A program made the position numbers and the translations under genes. The notes under the pieces are model-generated. The model searched no databases, was not told the origin of the DNA, and saw nothing but the letters and a program-made list of their open reading frames with translations. From Tepidiforma sp. (lineage in GTDB: Bacteria > Chloroflexota > Dehalococcoidia > Tepidiformales > Tepidiformaceae): a DNA stretch of 64,000 bases. Numbering within the stretch: the first letter of the stretch is position 1; each line of letters opens with the position of its first letter. The stretch lies in assembly GCA_026003935.1 (NCBI GenBank), contig BPIE01000002.1:62001-126000 (forward strand), read 5' to 3'. This document shows positions 9,701 to 27,794 of this stretch, in pieces.

Positions 9701-9729
9701 ACGCGCATTATATGGCGACCGCACTCAGC

Positions 9730-10037: not shown

Positions 10038-10826
10038 CTACTCAGCAGTTTCCGCAGCAGCACGGTCGAGGAAGTGCTCGACGACACGGTTCCACTCGTC
10101 GGCCCGCTCGAAGTAGCAGGAGTGCCCGGCGCCGCGAATGACCGCAACTTCTGCACCCGGGACGAGTGAAGCGGCCTCGCGAATCATCTCGGGCGGCGTG
10201 ATGGCATCGTGTTCACCGACGATGTAGAGGATTGGCACGTTGAGCCGGCCGAGGACCTCGTGCATCGAGCCGCGGTACGAGGGAGGGGGCGGGCCGAGGA
10301 GCCCGCGCGGCCGGGGCGGGTTGAGCGCGTTCACCTGGCGGTACAGGAGTGCCAGTGCCGGATTCTCCTCTTCGAAGCCGGGAGCGAGGGCCTGTTCGCG
10401 GAGGCTGGCGCCGCCGCGCTCGGCCCGGAGAGATGCCTGCATGTCGCGGATGCGGTCATTCGTTGCGCCGGCGGTGGTGCCGCAGAGCACGAGAGAGGCG
10501 ATTCGCGAGGGGGCCAGCCGGGCGAGGCCGGCGACAGCCCGGCCGCCCATCGACTGAGCCACAACATGGGCGCGTTCGATGCGCAGGTGGTCGAGAAGCC
10601 CGAGGAGGTCCGTCCCGAGGGTTGTGCGAGCGACATTCATGTCGCCGCGGGAGAGTCCCCAGCCCCGGGCGTCGTAGACGGTGACACGAAAGCGGCCGGA
10701 GAAGTAGGCAGTCTGCTGCCACCACGCAAGGTGGTTGCCGCCCGCGCCATGGATGAACACGAGGTCGGGACCGCCGCCATGCTGGCGGTAGTAGAGGCGT
10801 GCACCATTGACGTTTGCGAAGGGCAT
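10038..10826 (-). CDS. Alpha/beta hydrolase
   Basis: A 262-residue alpha/beta-fold hydrolase. The oxyanion region is FIHGAGGNHLAWW (about residues 24-36). The nucleophile elbow is AQSMGG (Ser about 92), with Ala in place of the first Gly of GxSxG. The acid is in VGEHDAITP and the catalytic His in GAGHSCYFE. This resembles 3-oxoadipate enol-lactonase or general esterases, but substrate is not determinable. A -10-like TACACT on the minus strand (10836-10841) lies only 9 bases from the ATG, so the mRNA may be nearly leaderless. It is divergent from the LLM gene at 10912. Confidence 0.9.
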   Translation of the reverse strand: MPFANVNGARLYYRQHGGGPDLVFIHGAGGNHLAWWQQTAYFSGRFRVTVYDARGWGLSRGDMNVARTTLGTDLLGLLDHLRIERAHVVAQSMGGRAVAGLARLAPSRIASLVLCGTTAGATNDRIRDMQASLRAERGGASLREQALAPGFEEENPALALLYRQVNALNPPRPRGLLGPPPPSYRGSMHEVLGRLNVPILYIVGEHDAITPPEMIREAASLVPGAEVAVIRGAGHSCYFERADEWNRVVEHFLDRAAAETAE

Positions 10827-10911
10827 CGGCGGTGCAGTGTACCTTGCAGACGTACTTCACCAGAGCCGAGGGGGTGAGTAGGCTGCGGGCAACGAGGAGG
10901 TTCACGGCAAG

Positions 10912-11838
10912 ATGAAGATTGGGATTGGCATCGGCATCACCGGGGCCGAAGGGCTGTCGGAGGTCATTGGCCAGATTCAGCGGGCCGAGGAGAGCGGCTT
11001 CGATTCCGCCTGGCTTCCGAACATCTTCGGACTCGACGCCATTACGACCATCGCCATCGCGGGGCGAGAAACTTCGCGCATCGAGCTCGGGACGTTCGTG
11101 GTTCCAACCTACCCGAGGCACCCGGTTGCGATGGCGCAGCAAGCGCTGACGGCCTCAGCGGCGACGGGGGGGCGGTTCACGCTTGGGATTGGGTTGAGCC
11201 ATCGAGTCGTCATCGAGGGGATGTTCGGGCTCGACTATTCGAAGCCGGTACGGCACATGCGGGAGTACCTTTCGGTGCTGGTTCCACTTCTCGAGGGGAA
11301 AGCGGTCCAGTTCGCCGGGGAAGAGTTCCGGGTACAGGCCCAGCTCACGGTTGCCGGGGCGCCCCGTCCATCCGTCGTCGTTGCAGCGCTGGGGCCTCAG
11401 ATGCTGAAGCTGGCCGGCAGGCTTGCCGACGGGACGGCCACCTGGATGGGCGGTCCGGCTTACCTGCGCGATACGGCTGTGCCGGCCATTCGTGCGGCGG
11501 CGGAAGCGGCCGGTCGGCCAACGCCGCGGGTCGTGAGCGGATTCCCGGTGGCAGTCACAGCGGACCCGGCCCGCGCGCGGGAATCGGCCGCCCGCGTGTT
11601 CGCCGTCTATGGGACGCTGCCGTCGTATCGTGCGGTGCTCGACGTCGAAGGGGCGGCTGGACCGGCGGACGTTGCCATTGTCGGGAGCGAATCCGAAGTG
11701 ACGGACCGCCTGCGGGAGCTTTCCGCGGCTGGCGTGACGGACTTCAACGCGTCACCCTTCCCGGTGGACGGAGACCCGGGAGCCGTGCGGCGAACCATCG
11801 AGTTTCTTGCCGGGCTCAGGCGGGCTGGTGGAGTGTAG
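10912..11838 (+). CDS. LLM class F420-dependent oxidoreductase
   Basis: A 308-residue luciferase-like barrel that looks closest to the TIGR03564 (MSMEG_4879-like) group of F420-dependent oxidoreductases. Marks are MKIGIGIGITGAEG at strand 1, FDSAWLPNIFGLDA (about 30-45), IELGTFVVPTYPRHP and RFTLGIGLSHR. An AALGPQMLKLAGRLADGTATW segment lies in the second half. Start: GAGGAGG upstream of the ATG. F420 use is an inference from family resemblance; no F420 biosynthesis gene is in the window. Confidence 0.88.
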   Translation: MKIGIGIGITGAEGLSEVIGQIQRAEESGFDSAWLPNIFGLDAITTIAIAGRETSRIELGTFVVPTYPRHPVAMAQQALTASAATGGRFTLGIGLSHRVVIEGMFGLDYSKPVRHMREYLSVLVPLLEGKAVQFAGEEFRVQAQLTVAGAPRPSVVVAALGPQMLKLAGRLADGTATWMGGPAYLRDTAVPAIRAAAEAAGRPTPRVVSGFPVAVTADPARARESAARVFAVYGTLPSYRAVLDVEGAAGPADVAIVGSESEVTDRLRELSAAGVTDFNASPFPVDGDPGAVRRTIEFLAGLRRAGGV

Positions 11839-11886: not shown

Positions 11887-14244
11887 ATGAACGACCACAC
11901 GCTGCGCGTCCTCGAGTTCGACCGCGTGCTCGAGCTGCTCGCTGCTGAGGCGGCGTTCAGCCTTGGGGCAGAGCGAGCGCGTGCGCTGCGCCCGGCGGTG
12001 TCTTTCGCCGAAGCGAAGGGTCTCGCCGAGCAGACCGCACAAATGCGGCTCCTCGACCAGCTGGGCATCGACGTGCCGTTTTCGGGCGCTCGCGATATCC
12101 GGGCGCATCTCCGCGCTGCTGCGATTGGGCAGCTGCTCGAGCCCGGGGCGCTGCTGGAGTGTGCGCAGGTGTTGATGACCGCGAGGCGAGCCCGTCTCGT
12201 CCTCGACAAGGTCCGCGACCGGGTTCCGGCGCTGGCGGCACTCGGCGACGCGATCGGCGATTTCCGCTCGTTTGCGGAAGACGTCGAGGCGGCGGTTTCG
12301 CCGCGCGGCGAAGTCCTCGATACAGCGAGCGAGCAGCTGGCGCTCGTGCGGCGGGAACTCCGCGCCGCCGAGGCGCGCCTCGAGCAGCGGGCACAGGGTG
12401 CCCTCACCGAAGCGATACGCCGGGGAGCTGCGCAAGAGGGGCTGCTCACGGAGCGAAACGGTCGGAAGGTCATCCCGGTGCGCTCGGATAGCCGCTCACT
12501 GGTGCCGGGGATTGTCCACGACGTCTCGTCGAGCGGGGCGACACTCTTCATTGAACCGTTCTCGGTGGTCGAAGCAGGAAACGCAGTCCGTGAATTGCGT
12601 CTCGCAGAGGAGCGGGAGGTTCGGCGAGTCCTGCAGCGCCTCACGGACCAGCTCGGGACGCGGGCAGAGGAGGCGATGCGCTCCCTCGAGGCGCTGGGCG
12701 AGCTCGATCTCATTCACGCGAAGGCTCGGCTGGCGCGGAAGATGGCTGCTGCGCTGCCGCCCAGCGGCGAAGTTGAGACGTGGTTCAGCGAACGGGGCTC
12801 TACGCGCCTTATCCGGGCGCGTCACCCCCTGCTGCGCGGGCACGTGGTCCCGATCGACATCGAGGTCGGCGAAATCCCGCAAGGCATCCTGATTACGGGC
12901 CCAAACACCGGCGGCAAGACGGTCGCATTGAAGACCGTGGGCCTGCTGACGCTGATGGCGCAGGCCGGGTTGGGCGTCCCCTGTGACGACGGCAGCCGCA
13001 TCCGGTTTTACCCCAGGGTGTTCGCGGATATCGGCGACGAGCAGTCGATTGAGCAAAGCCTTTCGACGTTTTCTTCGCACCTTCGGAACATCATCAGCAT
13101 TCTCGGCGAGGCCGATGAGCGCACACTGGTGCTGCTCGATGAGCTCGGAGCCGGCACCGACCCCGCGGAAGGCGCAGCCATTGCGCGCGCCGTCATCGAG
13201 GAACTCCTTGAGCGTGGCTCGACGCTCGTCGCAACGACCCATCACGGCGAGCTCAAGGTGTTCGCTCACGGCGACCCGCGTCTTGCAAACGCGTCCGTCG
13301 AGTTCGACCTCGACACACTCAGCCCGACCTACCATCTCGTGGTCGGGCTGCCGGGCCAGTCGAACGCGCTGGCCATTGCGCGGCGGCTCGGGCTGGCAGA
13401 ACGCGTCGTTGCGCGGGCGGCTCAGCAGCTTTCGCCGGGGCATTTCGAACTCGAAGCGCTCCTCGAAGAGATCCGTGTGCAGCGGCGCGAAGCCGAGGCA
13501 GCGCGGGCGGCGGCTGAGCAGGCACGCGCCGAGGCTGAGGGGCTGCGGCGGGAACTCGCGCTGGAGCGAGAACGCATCGAGGACGAGCGGGCGGCCGTTC
13601 TGTCGGAGGCGAAGCGGGCGGCCGATGATGCCCTCGCGCACATGCGCCGGGAGGTCGAGCAGCTGCGCCGCAGAGCCGCCGAGCGGCAGTTCGACCCGAC
13701 GGCCGCGCAGGAGGCACTGCAACAGGCCGAGCGTCAGCGGGCGGAACTCGCCCGGCTGGCGGTGCCTCGAAAGGCTGCGGCTGCGACGCGGGCAGTTCCG
13801 GGGGAGATTGAGCCGGGAGACCTCGTCCACGTCCGCGATATCCCCCAGCTCGGGGAGGTGCTGACTGCGCCCGGTGAAGACGGCCGGCTGGAAGTGCAGT
13901 TCGGCAGCATCCGGATGAAGGTGAGCATCGACCGGGTAGACCGCATCGAAAAGCCGCGAGCCGAGGGCGGCCGCGTGTTGGTGCCGGCTGGTCCCCCGGT
14001 AAGTCACGAGCTCGATCTTCGAGGGCAGCGGGCGGAGGCAGCACTGGAGCGCTTTGAGAGCTACCTCGATGCTGCGTTCCGGGCAGGGCTGCCGTATGTG
14101 CGCATCATCCACGGCAAGGGCACAGGGGCGCTTCGCGCTGCCATTCGCGAGGCCCTCGCACGGCACCCGCTCGTGCGCGGCTACGAATCCGCGCCCGCGG
14201 CCGAAGGGGGCGACGGTGTGACCATCGCCCTGCTGGCAGGGTAG
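11887..14244 (+). CDS. mutS2: MutS2 family ATPase/endonuclease
   Basis: A 785-residue MutS2, the usual length. The core/lever region (1-300) is followed by the ABC-type ATPase with Walker A GPNTGGKT (about 338-345) and Walker B LVLLDELGAGTDP (Asp about 418). A long Ala/Arg/Glu coiled coil follows (about 530-630). A KOW-like linker leads to a C-terminal Smr nuclease domain (from about 708: ELDLRGQRAE, then IIHGKGTGALR). MutS2 proteins suppress recombination or rescue collided ribosomes; which applies here cannot be read from sequence. The promoter may be very close: a TACGCT -10-like hexamer ends 8 bases before the ATG. rarA follows 4 bases later. Confidence 0.96.
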   Translation: MNDHTLRVLEFDRVLELLAAEAAFSLGAERARALRPAVSFAEAKGLAEQTAQMRLLDQLGIDVPFSGARDIRAHLRAAAIGQLLEPGALLECAQVLMTARRARLVLDKVRDRVPALAALGDAIGDFRSFAEDVEAAVSPRGEVLDTASEQLALVRRELRAAEARLEQRAQGALTEAIRRGAAQEGLLTERNGRKVIPVRSDSRSLVPGIVHDVSSSGATLFIEPFSVVEAGNAVRELRLAEEREVRRVLQRLTDQLGTRAEEAMRSLEALGELDLIHAKARLARKMAAALPPSGEVETWFSERGSTRLIRARHPLLRGHVVPIDIEVGEIPQGILITGPNTGGKTVALKTVGLLTLMAQAGLGVPCDDGSRIRFYPRVFADIGDEQSIEQSLSTFSSHLRNIISILGEADERTLVLLDELGAGTDPAEGAAIARAVIEELLERGSTLVATTHHGELKVFAHGDPRLANASVEFDLDTLSPTYHLVVGLPGQSNALAIARRLGLAERVVARAAQQLSPGHFELEALLEEIRVQRREAEAARAAAEQARAEAEGLRRELALERERIEDERAAVLSEAKRAADDALAHMRREVEQLRRRAAERQFDPTAAQEALQQAERQRAELARLAVPRKAAAATRAVPGEIEPGDLVHVRDIPQLGEVLTAPGEDGRLEVQFGSIRMKVSIDRVDRIEKPRAEGGRVLVPAGPPVSHELDLRGQRAEAALERFESYLDAAFRAGLPYVRIIHGKGTGALRAAIREALARHPLVRGYESAPAAEGGDGVTIALLAG

Positions 14245-24210: not shown

Positions 24211-25572
24211 ATGATGGCAGCCGCGCGGCCCCTCGTGGTGCTGAGCGGACTGCTGGTGTGGCTCGCGGCAGCGTGCTCTCACGGCAGCGGGGCCAGCCCC
24301 GCACCGGGGGTGGCTTCGGTCGCGGCGGAGCGCGTCCGCGAGGACGGCGCGGCGACGCTCCGCAGCCGCGTCATCGTGACGTTCACGGGGCCAGCGCGGT
24401 TCGCCGAGTCTCGCGTGCCGCTCGCATCTCACTTCGAGCTTCGGCTCAAGCGGGCTGATGGGAGCACGACAACGGTCCTTGTGGAATCGGCGGAGCGCAG
24501 CACCGAAGACCGCCGCCAGGTCGTGCTGACCGTCGACACGCTGGTAACCACCGGGAGCGTGCTCGTCGTCTCGCGGAAGGCGTTCGACCCGCGAGCAGAG
24601 GGGAGCATCGAGGCGCCCATCACGGGCGCCTTCGAACCGGCCATCGCGCTGCTGGCGAGCTCGGCGCTGGTGCCGGCCGATCCCGGGTTCTTCGACCCGC
24701 CGGCAGCACCGGGGCCCGACCCCGCCGGTGACGATGCGGCATCCATGCGAGAGGCGCTTCGGCGACACCTCGCGATGCGCGGGGAAGACGCGATAACCAG
24801 CTCCGACGCTCTCGCGACTTACGATGCGATTCCCGAGGCCATCGTGCCCTCGCCCAGGCTCCGGGCCGCTCTTGCTGGCCTGACGGGCACATTCGCTGAG
24901 CCGGCGCTCACCGACCTGCTCACTACGAACAATTGCACGGGGCTGCCAGCTGCGAGCATCGATTTCCGCGAACCGCCGGGCGACGCGAAGCTTCTCGCGC
25001 GTGTGACCTACGAAGGTTCCGGGGCCCGCGTCGTCTCGATTCATCCATCGCTGAGGTACGACCGATTCGAGCTCCTGATGCCGCTCCTCGCCCATGAGGC
25101 GGTCCACTGCGACCAGGCGGACAGCAAGGTCGAGGAGGTGGCGGCGACGGCATTCGACACCCTCCTCTACCTGCAGCTCGTAGCGGCCGACCCCTCGCTG
25201 GCGGAGGAGCGGACGGAGCTCGCGCGGGAGCTGCGCATCGATGCCCTTGCACTGCTCAACAGCGGCGCTGCCTGGCCAGAATCCGTGGGTATCCTCCAGT
25301 CGCCAGGCGTGTCTGCGGTGATGCCGAATACGACGGCACCGTACCGGTCGTTCGCGGAATTCGTCGCAGCGTCGTATCCAGCGGTGACTGAGGTTCTGTC
25401 GGCGACGGAGCCGCTCGCAGCCGCCTACATGGGGATGCTGGCAGCGGCTGCAGGCGCGGAGAGAGGCGATCCGTTTGACCTGCGCTACCTCGATGGACTG
25501 CTGGGACGGGCGCTCGAGCCCCGCGAGCTCGTGGCGGTCATCGAGGCGTTCGAACTGGTGCCTGCGGATTGA
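24211..25572 (+). CDS. Lipoprotein with an HExxH zinc-peptidase motif
   Basis: A 453-residue protein with signal peptide and lipobox LAAAC (Cys22). Residues 40-130 look like a beta domain. Residues 160 onward are helical and include LLAHEAVHCDQ, giving His295-Glu296-His299, the HExxH zinc motif, within a helix after a hydrophobic strand. Further down, VEEVAATAFDTLLY could supply a Glu ligand as in gluzincins. A putative surface metalloprotease is therefore proposed, but I recognise no named family and activity is unproven. It starts 3 bases after the crotonase stop, so the two are probably co-transcribed. Confidence 0.75.
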   Translation: MMAAARPLVVLSGLLVWLAAACSHGSGASPAPGVASVAAERVREDGAATLRSRVIVTFTGPARFAESRVPLASHFELRLKRADGSTTTVLVESAERSTEDRRQVVLTVDTLVTTGSVLVVSRKAFDPRAEGSIEAPITGAFEPAIALLASSALVPADPGFFDPPAAPGPDPAGDDAASMREALRRHLAMRGEDAITSSDALATYDAIPEAIVPSPRLRAALAGLTGTFAEPALTDLLTTNNCTGLPAASIDFREPPGDAKLLARVTYEGSGARVVSIHPSLRYDRFELLMPLLAHEAVHCDQADSKVEEVAATAFDTLLYLQLVAADPSLAEERTELARELRIDALALLNSGAAWPESVGILQSPGVSAVMPNTTAPYRSFAEFVAASYPAVTEVLSATEPLAAAYMGMLAAAAGAERGDPFDLRYLDGLLGRALEPRELVAVIEAFELVPAD

Positions 25573-25588: not shown

Positions 25589-25619
25589 TTGTCCCGTACT
25601 GGGGAGCTCGTGCTAGCAT
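25589..25619 (+). promoter_or_regulatory. Candidate promoter for the SAM-riboswitch operon
   Basis: -35-like TTGTCC (25589-25594), 19-base spacer, -10-like TAGCAT (25614-25619). Predicted start around 25626, just upstream of the riboswitch. Confidence 0.45.
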
Positions 25620-25643
25620 TGACGGAAATCCCGCGAACGTGGC

Positions 25644-25761
25644 CGCTCGTATCGAGATGGGGTTGAGGGACCGGCCCGATGAAACCCCGGCAACCTGCCA
25701 GCGCGGTAAGGTGCCAAATCCGGCCTCCCGGGCGTGCATCCCTGGGGGAAAGATGAGAGCG
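25644..25761 (+). promoter_or_regulatory. SAM-I (S-box) riboswitch
   Basis: S-adenosylmethionine-binding leader. The conserved core is present in order: P1 5' strand with ATCGAGATGG, GAGGGACCGGCCCGATGAAA (25666-25685), CCCGGCAACC, GGTGCCAAATCC, a variable P4 stem and GATGAGAGCG closing P1. P1 pairs CGCTC (25644-25648) with GAGCG near 25757-25761. SAM binding is expected to switch expression of the following threonine synthase, NIL and sulfur-carrier genes off. No obvious T-tract terminator directly follows, so translational control or control via the hairpin at 25842-25860 is possible. Confidence 0.93.
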
Positions 25762-25806
25762 ACTTCGCTCCGAAACACGGCCCACGCGGAACGAGGAGAT
25801 GCCGAG

Positions 25807-25842
25807 ATGGTTGAGTTCCTGGGCCGAATGGTCATGCTCTAG
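25807..25842 (+). CDS. Possible 11-residue leader peptide
   Basis: Encodes MVEFLGRMVML between the riboswitch and threonine synthase. It has a good ribosome site (GAGGAG, 25793-25798, 8-base spacing). Three of eleven codons are Met. The stop codon is the first base of a hairpin. This arrangement resembles an amino-acid-sensing leader, but an alternative ATG sits at 25799 in another frame and the peptide may be fortuitous. Confidence 0.35.
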   Translation: MVEFLGRMVML

Positions 25843-25860
25843 CCCCTCACCAGAAGGGGC
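25842..25860 (+). promoter_or_regulatory. Hairpin after the leader peptide
   Basis: 6-bp stem GCCCCT/AGGGGC with a 7-base loop, starting at the last base of the leader-peptide stop. No T-run follows, so it is not a standard terminator. Confidence 0.4.
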
Positions 25861-25947
25861 CTCCCGACGTCCTTTCCGCCATTGCCTGACGAGCACCGCG
25901 CCAGCGCGCCGCTGCCGCAGGTCCAGTTTCCACAGGGAGGAACGAGC

Positions 25948-27192
25948 ATGAGTTATGCCAAGAATCTTCGCTGCCGCGAGTGTCACCGGGAGTACCCGCT
26001 CGAAGCGCGGCATGTTTGTGATTTCTGTTTCGGGCCCGTCGAGGTCACGTATGACTACGATGCCATCCGGAAGGTAGTGACCCGCGAGCGCATCGAACGC
26101 GGGCCTGCTTCGCTGTGGCGGTACCGCGACTTCCTGCCGTGCGACGCTGATTCGGCCATCGACATCGGCGCCGGGTTCACGCCGCTCATCGAGGCCAAGA
26201 ACCTCGGGAAAGCGCTCGGGCTGAAGAAGCTGTACATCAAGAACGACACGGTGAACCCGACGTGGTCGTTCAAGGACCGGGTGGTGGCAGTCGCGAGCAG
26301 CCGCGCCCGTGAGCTGGGCTACGACAAGCTCGCGTGCGCGAGCACGGGCAACCTTGCGAACAGCGTGAGCGCCCACGCGGCTGCAGCCGGAATGGAAGCG
26401 GTGGTGTTCATCCCGCACGACCTCGAGCTGGGTAAGGTGCTTGGCTCGAGCATTTACGGTCCGACGCTCGTGAAGGTGCGCGGGAACTACGATGCCGTCA
26501 ACCGGCTCTGCGCCGAGCTGGCCGGTGCCTACAACTGGGCGTTCGTGAACGTAAACGTGCGCCCGTACTACTCGGAAGGGTCGAAGACGCTCGGTTTCGA
26601 AGTGGCAGAGCAGCTGGGCTGGCGGGCGCCTGACCACTGCGTCGTGCCCATTGCGAGCGGCTCCCTGTTCGTGAAGATCCGGAAGGGGCTGCAGGAGCTC
26701 TGGAAGGCGGGGCTCATCGACGAGCCAAAGACGCGAATGAGCGGTGCGCAGGCGACGGGCTGCTCGCCGGTTGCCACGGCCTGGCAGGAAGGCACGATGA
26801 ACTTCCGACCGCAACGCCCGAACACAATCGCCAAGTCGCTAGCCATCGGGAACCCGGCCGACGGCTACTACAGCCTCGTGCAGCTCAAGGAGACTGGCGG
26901 AGCTTGCGGAAGCGTGACGGACGAGGAGATCGTCGCGGGGATGAAGCTGCTCGCGGAAACCGAAGGGATCTTTGCCGAGACCGCGGGCGGTGTCACCATC
27001 GCTTCCCTGAAGCAGCTGACCGAACAGGGGCATATCCACCCAGACGAACTGACCGTGGCATTCATCACGGGTGCCGGGTTCAAGACCGTCGAGGCCGTCG
27101 CCGAGGCGTTGAATCCGCCGCTCGAAATCGACGCCACGATGGAGAGCTTCGACGCCGCGTACAATGCGCGGGTCGCTCAGGGGGTCGCCTGA
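25948..27192 (+). CDS. thrC: Threonine synthase (PLP), zinc-ribbon type
   Basis: A 414-residue PLP enzyme of the threonine-synthase fold. An N-terminal zinc ribbon (CRECH and CDFCFG, residues 10-33) precedes the catalytic core. The PLP lysine is in PTWSFKDR (about Lys108). Substrate/PLP strings are CASTGNLANSVSAHAAAAG and VVPIASGSLF. The canonical reaction is O-phosphohomoserine to threonine. Because the operon is under a SAM-I riboswitch and carries a sulfur-carrier gene, an alternative is that this enzyme forms homocysteine from O-phosphohomoserine using protein-bound sulfur (inference). AGGGAGG 7 bases before the ATG sets the start. The stop overlaps the next ATG (TGATG). Confidence 0.88.
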   Translation: MSYAKNLRCRECHREYPLEARHVCDFCFGPVEVTYDYDAIRKVVTRERIERGPASLWRYRDFLPCDADSAIDIGAGFTPLIEAKNLGKALGLKKLYIKNDTVNPTWSFKDRVVAVASSRARELGYDKLACASTGNLANSVSAHAAAAGMEAVVFIPHDLELGKVLGSSIYGPTLVKVRGNYDAVNRLCAELAGAYNWAFVNVNVRPYYSEGSKTLGFEVAEQLGWRAPDHCVVPIASGSLFVKIRKGLQELWKAGLIDEPKTRMSGAQATGCSPVATAWQEGTMNFRPQRPNTIAKSLAIGNPADGYYSLVQLKETGGACGSVTDEEIVAGMKLLAETEGIFAETAGGVTIASLKQLTEQGHIHPDELTVAFITGAGFKTVEAVAEALNPPLEIDATMESFDAAYNARVAQGVA

Positions 27193-27434
27193 TGGCCGTG
27201 AAGCGCGTGCGGTTTACCTTTCCCGAGAACCTGATCCGCGAGCCGATCATTTATCGCCTCGGCCACGAGTTCCGCGTCATCACGAATGTACGGATGGCTG
27301 ACGTCGACGAGAAGACCGGCTGGGTGGTGCTCGAGCTCGAGGGTGACCCGGACGAGATTGAGCGCAGCATCGCCTGGGCGCAGGAGCGCGGCGTCCGCGT
27401 CGACCCCGTCACCGGTGACGTTGTGGAAGGCTGA
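27192..27434 (+). CDS. NIL domain protein
   Basis: An 80-residue protein with a NIL domain, the ferredoxin-like fold found at the C-terminus of the methionine transporter ATPase MetN and in sulfur-assimilation proteins. Visible marks are RFTFPENLIREPIIYRLG (residues 7-24), the signature containing the NLIREP-type motif that names the family. A VVLELEGDPDEIERSIAWA segment follows. In MetN the domain binds methionine; a free-standing NIL protein next to a sulfur carrier may sense or bind a sulfur amino acid. It overlaps the threonine synthase stop by one base and is followed after 78 bases by the sulfur-carrier gene. Confidence 0.88.
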   Translation: MAVKRVRFTFPENLIREPIIYRLGHEFRVITNVRMADVDEKTGWVVLELEGDPDEIERSIAWAQERGVRVDPVTGDVVEG

Positions 27435-27512
27435 GCCCCATCGGCCATCGGCGGGGCGCTGCCAGCCCGGCATTCTGACATCTCTGCAGATACCCACAGG
27501 AAGGAATTTCTC

Positions 27513-27794
27513 GTGCCCATCACTGTCCGCATTCCGCAGCCGCTCCGCCCACTGACGGGCAACCAGTCGACCGTGACCGCCGATGGCTCCACGCTGGAGG
27601 CGCTGGTGGCGAACCTTGAATCCGCCTATCCCGGCATCCGCGAGCGAATGGTCGACGAGACCGGCCAAATTCGGCGGTTCGTGAATATTTATGTGAACGG
27701 CGACGACGTGCGGTTCCTCGACGGCCTGTCGACGGCGCTGAAGGACGGCGACGAGGTGAGCATCGTCCCGGCGGTGGCCGGCGGCTCGGCCTGA
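27513..27794 (+). CDS. MoaD/ThiS-family sulfur-carrier protein
   Basis: A 93-residue ubiquitin-fold protein starting with GTG after AGGAAGG. The fold marks are VRIPQPLRPLTG, GSTLEALVANLESAYPGI, FVNIYVNGDDVR and the C-terminal DGDEVSIVPAVAGGSA. Sulfur carriers become thiocarboxylated on a terminal Gly-Gly; here Gly-Gly is followed by Ser-Ala, so two residues must be removed first, as in QbsE- and HcyS-type precursors that need a JAMM protease. The carrier could provide sulfur to the neighbouring PLP enzyme. It resembles mycobacterial CysO in the VPAVAGG ending. No adenylating enzyme or JAMM protease lies in the window. Confidence 0.88.
   Translation: MPITVRIPQPLRPLTGNQSTVTADGSTLEALVANLESAYPGIRERMVDETGQIRRFVNIYVNGDDVRFLDGLSTALKDGDEVSIVPAVAGGSA

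Follow-up and report, generated by a model that had tools for sequence, protein, structure and literature searches.

What is a gene annotated as a threonine synthase doing behind an S-adenosylmethionine (SAM) riboswitch, with a free NIL-domain protein and a sulfur carrier encoded after it? The locus that raises this question lies in a 64,000-nt stretch of Tepidiforma sp. (contig BPIE01000002.1 of assembly GCA_026003935.1, positions 62,001 to 126,000; hereafter the window), which comes from a 1.6 Mb assembly that is 72.55% complete. The closest named sequence belongs to a Tepidiforma metagenome-assembled genome (MAG; L003, 96% identity). The forward strand carries a SAM-I (S-box) riboswitch aptamer (25646–25759), a 414-aa pyridoxal phosphate (PLP) enzyme (25948–27192), an 80-aa NIL protein (27192–27434) whose ATG overlaps the stop codon of the enzyme gene (TGATG), and a 93-aa sulfur carrier with a GTG start (27513–27794). 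As the next gene, an AMP-ligase/acyltransferase, is on the opposite strand, the operon ends after the carrier gene. Judging from sequence comparison, we consider it highly likely that the operon encodes a homocysteine synthase of the MetM/MetO type with an added NIL subunit, the enzyme gene being metM-like and the carrier gene metO-like.

An earlier note on this DNA, which began the feature at 25589 (57 nt upstream of the aptamer), had named these parts from the letters alone. The SAM-I aptamer that it claimed matches Rfam RF00162 over the full-length model (1–108) at 71.9 bits (E 7.6e-15, gathering score 44.4), and the element is a predicted SAM-binding riboswitch. The enzyme, described there as a zinc-ribbon threonine synthase, matches PF00291 at 232 bits and has a visible N-terminal CxxC...CxxC ribbon, and the free NIL protein is recovered by PF09383 at 56 bits (gathering score 24). 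The last protein had been called MoaD/ThiS; it is SAMP/MoaD-like (PF02597, 73.4 bits; NCBIfam SAMP1, 66.5 bits) but not ThiS proper (19.6 bits, under the ThiS cut-off).

A system of this kind is already published for Streptomyces. In the accessible part of PMC12172450, which cites Hasebe et al. 2024 (doi 10.1128/aem.01247-24), MetM is a homocysteine synthase that acts on O-phosphohomoserine, with a metO carrier and a SAM riboswitch upstream. The threonine-synthase-like PLP enzyme, the adjacent carrier gene with its Gly-Gly and the upstream SAM riboswitch are all present in the window. The earlier note's proposal of a homocysteine route from O-phosphohomoserine, a prediction for this locus, agrees with that description in substrate, carrier neighbour and riboswitch; its thiocarboxylate interpretation is supported, yet the core idea is not new. 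New relative to the literature that we found are the NIL partner, the fact that it goes with two homocysteine routes, and a leader peptide with the pattern GRMxM. The window differs from MetM/MetO in having a NIL gene between enzyme and carrier, a leader open reading frame (ORF) between aptamer and enzyme, and a carrier that runs past Gly-Gly. At sequence level the comparison was made with a Nonomuraea locus (L131) of the same arrangement, whose enzyme is 53% identical to that of the window and in the same clade. Plasmid records were rejected as a source of the Streptomyces MetM: among the 15 records listed of 143 with a match, only the Nonomuraea record, which is chromosome-sized, exceeded 36% identity.

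Is the enzyme distinct from ordinary threonine synthase (ThrC)? We surveyed 61 genomes, the window's own and 60 relatives, and found the enzyme in 48 at 60% identity or more. Four of these genes are split or partial (two pieces in G001, part of the N-terminal half absent in G025, partial in G041 and G051), and all were counted as carriers of the enzyme. A shorter ThrC-like enzyme, at about 35% identity, also occurs among the relatives. Within the genus an ordinary thrC is present in five of the six genomes, the sixth being the window's own incomplete assembly, so the second thrC that the earlier note had proposed to look for does exist. In G004 this second enzyme sits two genes past homoserine dehydrogenase and scores 304.2 against the thrC model, compared with 266.7 for the window enzyme. 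Outside the relatives, 50 genomes reached via loci of other groups, which carry no completeness figure, were searched in the same way: 48 encode another ThrC-like enzyme besides the first (E 1e-30 or better), and the two without are G067 and G092.

The two types also separate by descent and by residue. We built a tree of 74 rows, made up of 42 enzyme sequences (every second of the 82 window-type sequences, plus Nonomuraea) and all 32 other ThrC-type sequences (20 come from the relatives; the remaining 12 are linked paralogues in sponge Dehalococcoidia). A single branch splits the 42 from the 32 with support 100/100, and the Nonomuraea enzyme falls inside the enzyme clade (100/100). Several alignment positions are fixed in 82/82 enzyme rows: V112 (G in 32/32 others), L136 (T or A in the 32), T345 (P in 32/32), and G347 with G348 (mostly S and A). 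These differences are located at the cofactor, beside its lysine and within the PLP loops. In residues and in clade position alike, the window enzyme departs from the ThrC that the same genus encodes after homoserine dehydrogenase. NCBIfam threonine synthase models fail to separate the MetM-type from the other ThrC-type group. They are the best models for the window enzyme, and neither cysK nor cysM is among the 25 of 40 NCBIfam families listed for it. As a separate observation, 12 of 14 sponge Dehalococcoidia loci (L015–L025 and L027) encode another ThrC-type PLP enzyme 3–6 kb further downstream, past the enzyme and NIL genes, and the six sponge Dehalococcoidia genomes searched hold an ordinary ThrC elsewhere too.

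Which other routes to homocysteine do these genomes have? We searched for PF01053, the family of metY, metB, metZ and metC (called full-length at E <1e-100), for MetX and for HcyBio (PF01837). The earlier note had proposed a search for metY, metB and metC, and in the genus no full-length PF01053 enzyme was found (0/6, short partial matches only); MetX and HcyBio are likewise found in 0/6, and HcyBio was on this ground rejected as the homocysteine route of the window lineage. Across the 61 genomes, PF01053 is full-length in 15 and HcyBio is present in four, none of which has the enzyme. Full-length MetX matches number eight, with a contig-cut match in G028 and a weak one in G059 uncounted; since no match in the relatives or in 14 control genomes reached the model cut-off of 500 bits, MetX was judged by full length and E value. 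Neither full-length PF01053 nor HcyBio was detected in 36 of the 48 enzyme-bearing relatives. The 13 genomes that do not carry the enzyme comprise six with PF01053 or HcyBio and seven with neither, these seven being at most 90% complete. Among the 50 genomes of other groups, HcyBio is found in none of the 30 non-cyanobacterial ones, and both families are missing from 12/19 actinobacteria, 2/4 Nitrospirota, Hakubella and 6/6 sponge Dehalococcoidia.

The carrier gene keeps close company with the enzyme. Among 80 named loci, 64 have a carrier match next to it, a linkage conserved over four phyla; a carrier that is a mere bystander was rejected for this reason. The 16 loci with no adjacent carrier are 14 of sponge-type Dehalococcoidia, that of Hakubella, and L063, which stops at a contig end; a close carrier match is encoded elsewhere in all six sponge-type genomes searched. 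Enzyme-adjacent carriers end in AGG plus zero to two residues, with the exception of L031 (a frame 20 residues longer) and L032 (contig-cut). The window carrier ends in AVAGGSA, two residues past Gly-Gly, and that of G002 appears to end in GGA. Activation and trimming genes join the operon in two Nitrospirota loci. In Leptospirillum (L033) the order is enzyme, carrier, NIL, E1 and JAMM. In L041 it is a small ThiS-like ORF (by eye), a CysK-type synthase, a MoeB-type E1, enzyme, carrier, NIL, a second E1 and JAMM. JAMM-family genes are present in 55/61 relatives at a loose threshold and in 52 above the cut-off. Within the genus, G005 has a further locus, apart from the operon, where two carriers stand with two cysteine synthases (one CysK-type, one CysK/CysM-type) and a frame that looks E1-like by eye; its JAMM gene lies elsewhere in the genome.

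Two further carrier arrangements were noted. Eleven cyanobacterial loci (L056, L067–L069, L072–L074, L077–L079 and L082) have an additional small carrier-like gene immediately 5′ of the enzyme; its product is MoaD-like by eye and ends in PPVSGG in the four that were read. In Hakubella, a cluster at L189 (3461–7990) joins a carrier and a gene resembling cysteine synthase (by eye) to a pair of E1-like genes, of which one was typed, two tandem NIL genes and JAMM, and lies on a different contig from the enzyme gene of that genome.

MetY-type sulfhydrylases use sulfide, and with this precedent the window enzyme could be a homocysteine synthase fed by free sulfide, its carrier serving a molybdenum cofactor, tRNA or cysteine pathway instead; the unlinked carrier of the sponge Dehalococcoidia would suit such an arrangement. 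We regard it as very unlikely, in view of the adjacency in 64/80 loci, of the E1 and JAMM genes placed in the same operon in the two Nitrospirota loci, and of the separate G005 locus, where two carriers stand with cysteine synthases of their own.

Carrier-fed PLP enzymes are known from two other systems. In Wolinella, the HcyS carrier, HcyF (E1) and HcyD (JAMM) supply sulfur to MetY, a homocysteine-forming PLP enzyme. MetY belongs to PF01053, whereas the window enzyme is a relative of threonine synthase (PF00291), so the route differs in its enzyme. In mycobacteria, the PALP-family PLP enzyme CysM is fed by the thiocarboxylated carrier CysO together with the JAMM protein Mec+, and the window shares the pairing of a PALP-family enzyme with a carrier. 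CysM, however, acts on O-phosphoserine, the window enzyme is not a CysM-type cysteine synthase, and the genus has its separate cysteine-synthase and two-carrier locus (G005). A protein thiocarboxylate pathway is also mentioned in the accessible part of PMC5764234.

For the MetM/MetO-type synthase that we favour, we infer the chemistry at the window locus as follows, and likewise the role of the NIL protein and the mechanism of the leader. A JAMM protease would first trim the residues beyond Gly-Gly (Ser-Ala in the window carrier), and a MoeB-like E1 encoded elsewhere would adenylate the C-terminal Gly-Gly, enabling thiocarboxylation. The PLP enzyme would bind O-phospho-L-homoserine and eliminate phosphate as threonine synthase does; the carrier thiocarboxylate, replacing water, would supply the nucleophile, and hydrolysis would free homocysteine. 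MetO, in the work of Hasebe and colleagues, is reportedly used in thiocarboxylated form. The NIL protein may bind methionine (or homocysteine) and restrain the enzyme, SAM would switch off the operon by way of its riboswitch, and SAM binding and translation of the leader may jointly set access to the enzyme start or the action of Rho.

Several observations weigh against this assignment. NCBIfam threonine synthase models accept the window enzyme (303.8 against a cut-off of 303, and 266.7 against 167.1), and the tree program warns of long branches meeting at the enzyme/ThrC split. According to the accessible part of PMC12172450, a Microcystis homologue 51.6% identical to the Streptomyces MetM acted in vitro as both threonine synthase and threonine deaminase, gave with O-phosphohomoserine and Na2S an unidentified peak near methionine, and is doubted by its authors to play the full MetM role in the cell. 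The enzyme occurs together with PF01053 in 12/48 relatives, PF01053 is present in 17 of the 50 other genomes (one contig-cut), and HcyBio in 19 of the 20 cyanobacterial genomes bearing the enzyme (one distant, E 3e-49). The enzyme is therefore often not the sole candidate route, and its role in cyanobacteria, where HcyBio is present, is less certain. No JAMM gene turned up in the genome of the window, which is incomplete, or in G002 (94% complete), and one leader of the window's family (L201) has no SAM-I. Finally, there is no NIL in the enzyme-bearing relatives G039 and G051, none detectable in 5 of the 50 other enzyme-bearing genomes and none near the Nonomuraea enzyme gene; thus the chemistry does not require NIL.

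Taken at face value, the names given by the database models and the threonine made in vitro by the Microcystis homologue would make the gene an ordinary threonine synthase that fell under SAM control by chance, with the carrier and NIL as bystanders. We find this scarcely credible, given that a separate ThrC-like enzyme is encoded in 5/6 genus genomes and 48/50 others, that in G004 this separate enzyme follows homoserine dehydrogenase by two genes, that the genus would be left with no homocysteine route among those sought, and that the linkage to the carrier is kept over four phyla.

What does the NIL protein add to a MetM/MetO-type synthase? It was detected in 51/61 relatives, adjoining the enzyme in 46, adjoining HcyBio in four and standing alone in G044, with a second copy in G055. 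Put differently, 46/48 enzyme genomes, 4/4 HcyBio genomes and 1/9 others have NIL (Fisher p 1.3e-7, for genomes that are related and not independent). In the Chloroflexota, NIL is tied to two unrelated homocysteine routes, MetM and HcyBio. The association extends to 45 of the 50 other genomes (26/30 outside the cyanobacteria), a search that covered 50 of 51 records, all but the Nonomuraea record of more than 8 million bases. The NIL gene of six actinobacterial loci is 4–8 kb downstream of the enzyme.

The NIL proteins linked to the enzyme are about 80 aa long and have no Fe-S motif; they contain no Cys in the Chloroflexota and one in the four actinobacterial proteins read whole. The 17 cyanobacterial and three HcyBio-linked proteins read are mostly 134–142 aa, with Fe-S motifs and 8–9 Cys. 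This bears on the system of HcyBio (DUF39/COG1900, L-aspartate semialdehyde sulfurtransferase) and its NIL-ferredoxin, which resembles the window in placing NIL beside a homocysteine-forming enzyme (4/4 HcyBio genomes). The differences are that the HcyBio enzyme is unrelated to that of the window, that PF01837 is found in none of the six genus genomes, and that all three HcyBio-linked NIL proteins read combine two Fe-S motifs with 8 Cys, while the window NIL is stand-alone, 80 aa and free of Cys.

The earlier note had suggested that NIL binds a sulfur amino acid, and its ancestry fits this prediction. A profile of 14 NIL proteins matches the C-terminal domain of MetN, a methionine-binding domain, in the PDB (3dhx, E 3.3e-9; 3dhw, E 1.8e-7), and NIL position 32, which aligns with MetN N295 of 3dhw, is Asn in 13 of the 14. 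In E. coli MetNI the N295A change raises the Ki for L-Met 28-fold, as stated in the accessible part of PMC12357092, and the NIL of the HcyBio partner is stated to bind methionine (PMC12068725). Because of this kinship and the retained Asn, whose change in MetN raises the Ki for L-Met, a methionine sensor is the best reading, and the window NIL probably senses methionine. It is possible, though we think it doubtful, that NIL is instead a working subunit that docks the carrier or handles a sulfur intermediate, an adaptor common to the HcyBio and MetM routes. Two unrelated homocysteine enzymes both have NIL at their side, two NIL genes stand between the E1-like and JAMM genes of the Hakubella carrier cluster, and in L050 NIL directly follows a LarE-like sulfur transferase; such a subunit is harder to reconcile with the enzyme genomes that have no NIL, with the binding of L-Met by the MetN NIL domain through the Asn retained in the window protein, and with the methionine binding stated in PMC12068725. 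A literature search, with most subscription papers outside its reach, found no publication naming a NIL protein with MetM.

The L050 pair is also recorded for its position. Its LarE-like sacrificial sulfur transferase gene (typed) overlaps the NIL gene at 10408–11549, a few kb downstream of the enzyme, the carrier and a GroEL-like gene, and L065 is alike by eye at 12355–13595.

How general is the SAM-I control? The Rfam search covered 61 of the 81 named loci, and the other 20, cyanobacterial and sponge loci, were scanned only by a fuzzy core pattern that missed 3 of 34 Rfam-positive loci (L031, L051 and L071). By Rfam, SAM-I precedes the enzyme in 11/11 of the nearest Chloroflexota loci (81–96% identity), in 23/23 actinobacterial loci other than Hakubella, and in Nonomuraea; within the window's family, 19 of 20 additional leaders have it too. 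It was detected by Rfam in none of 26 loci of other kinds (cyanobacterial, 11; sponge Dehalococcoidia, 9; Nitrospirota, 5; Hakubella, 1), and the fuzzy pattern found no SAM-I in the 20 loci scanned by it alone. The distance from aptamer end to the first codon of the enzyme is about 7 nt in actinobacterial loci (L037, L040 and L044 among them) and 188 nt in the window. Two other SAM elements were encountered along the way. Two Nitrospirota loci have a SAM-II match some 4.5 kb 5′ of the enzyme gene (L033, 48–109; L043, 3352–3413; 46.2 and 47.1 bits, cut-off 44). The window's genome has another SAM-I on contig 1 (L083, 9968–10059, minus strand, 58.5 bits), which precedes genes at 9718–5162 (minus strand) for a MoxR-type ATPase, a VWA/metallopeptidase-like protein (both by eye) and, in third place, a diverged S-adenosylmethionine synthetase (Pfam).

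Between the window aptamer and its enzyme gene lies a leader ORF, MVEFLGRMVML* (25807–25842), with a Shine-Dalgarno-like GAGGAG (25793–25798) 8 nt 5′ of its ATG. We took 33 leaders, dropped three duplicates and the aptamer-less L201, and kept 29, many from close relatives; a leader ORF is present in 29 of the 30 distinct family leaders. A motif-based search found a ribosome-binding site, a start, a frame of 9–14 codons and a stop in all 29 aptamer-bearing leaders, with the family pattern ...GRMxM...* in 27; L206 has GPMVM and L197 GRPCM. A stem of CGGCCC (25778–25783) and GGGCCG (25821–25826), predicted by RNAalifold from 24 relatives, encloses the leader ribosome-binding site and start, with five consensus pairs that each occur in 23–24 of 24 rows. 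It shows almost no covariation, which is uninformative because the pairs are nearly invariant.

The GRMxM leader might thus be an RNA stem of the expression platform that only has the appearance of an ORF, as the pairing of GGGCC with GGCCC in 23–24 of 24 rows and the near-invariance of the paired letters would allow. We think this unlikely. When the search was repeated with no motif required, GGGCCG was crossed in the leader frame by an ORF that has a ribosome-binding site and a start codon in 29/29 leaders, against 3/29 and 2/29 for the other frames. In codons 2–11 of the 17 equal-length rows, entropy rises with codon position (0.62, 0.80 and 0.93 for positions 1 to 3). Across the same 17, the Arg codon varies in its third base (CGA, 6; CGT, 5; CGC, 4; CGG, 1; not Arg, 1), while the last (second) Met codon is constant (17/17). 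The stop may be TAG, TAA or TGA, and the start lies 8, 11 or 14 nt from the stem, distances that all keep the frame. Translation of this leader, which has Met codons in its GRMxM motif, probably adds a second check alongside SAM-I.

As for the expression platform, an intrinsic terminator after the aptamer was rejected. A terminator scan found none and leader folding energy was no better than that of shuffles (z 0.51); transcription termination therefore could not be shown. A possible hairpin, GCCCCT/AGGGGC, runs from the leader stop codon (25842–25860, sequence and alignments); it is missing from the RNAalifold consensus and no T run follows it. A leader-type ORF was also sought at the second SAM-I riboswitch of the genome, where its GGGCCG.ATG anchor did not turn up. 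A short leader ORF paired with a riboswitch has a parallel in Mycobacterium tuberculosis, where a B12 riboswitch and an upstream ORF precede metE and ppe2 (accessible part of PMC11260477). There the ORF is translated, and both ligand and peptide differ from the SAM-I and GRMxM of the window, whose ORF is predicted. The same literature search found no publication on such a SAM-I leader peptide.

Upstream of the operon, a 453-aa lipoprotein-like ORF (24211–25572) has no Pfam or NCBIfam match and is also present in L182 (3293–4672).

What follows for the biology of these bacteria? We tentatively propose, as something somewhat short of an even chance, a control in three layers: SAM would be read by the aptamer, the supply of Met to the ribosome by the GRMxM leader, and methionine by a stand-alone NIL protein acting on both MetM and HcyBio, with the same enzyme supplying homocysteine in Acidimicrobiales relatives of Acidimicrobium ferrooxidans. 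The accessible part of PMC5764234 names A. ferrooxidans among organisms without known homocysteine routes. Acidimicrobiales and Acidimicrobiaceae MAGs in our set carry the enzyme, which is a candidate for the published homocysteine gap of Acidimicrobium. For the protein called threonine synthase in Chloroflexota, Actinomycetota and Nitrospirota (perhaps also Cyanobacteriota), MetM would be the better name; pathway tools that rely on models can therefore wrongly score an inability to make methionine and miscount threonine synthases. The conserved leader would add a peptide to a SAM-I riboswitch, and the tie of NIL to two independent homocysteine routes makes the role of free NIL proteins directly testable.

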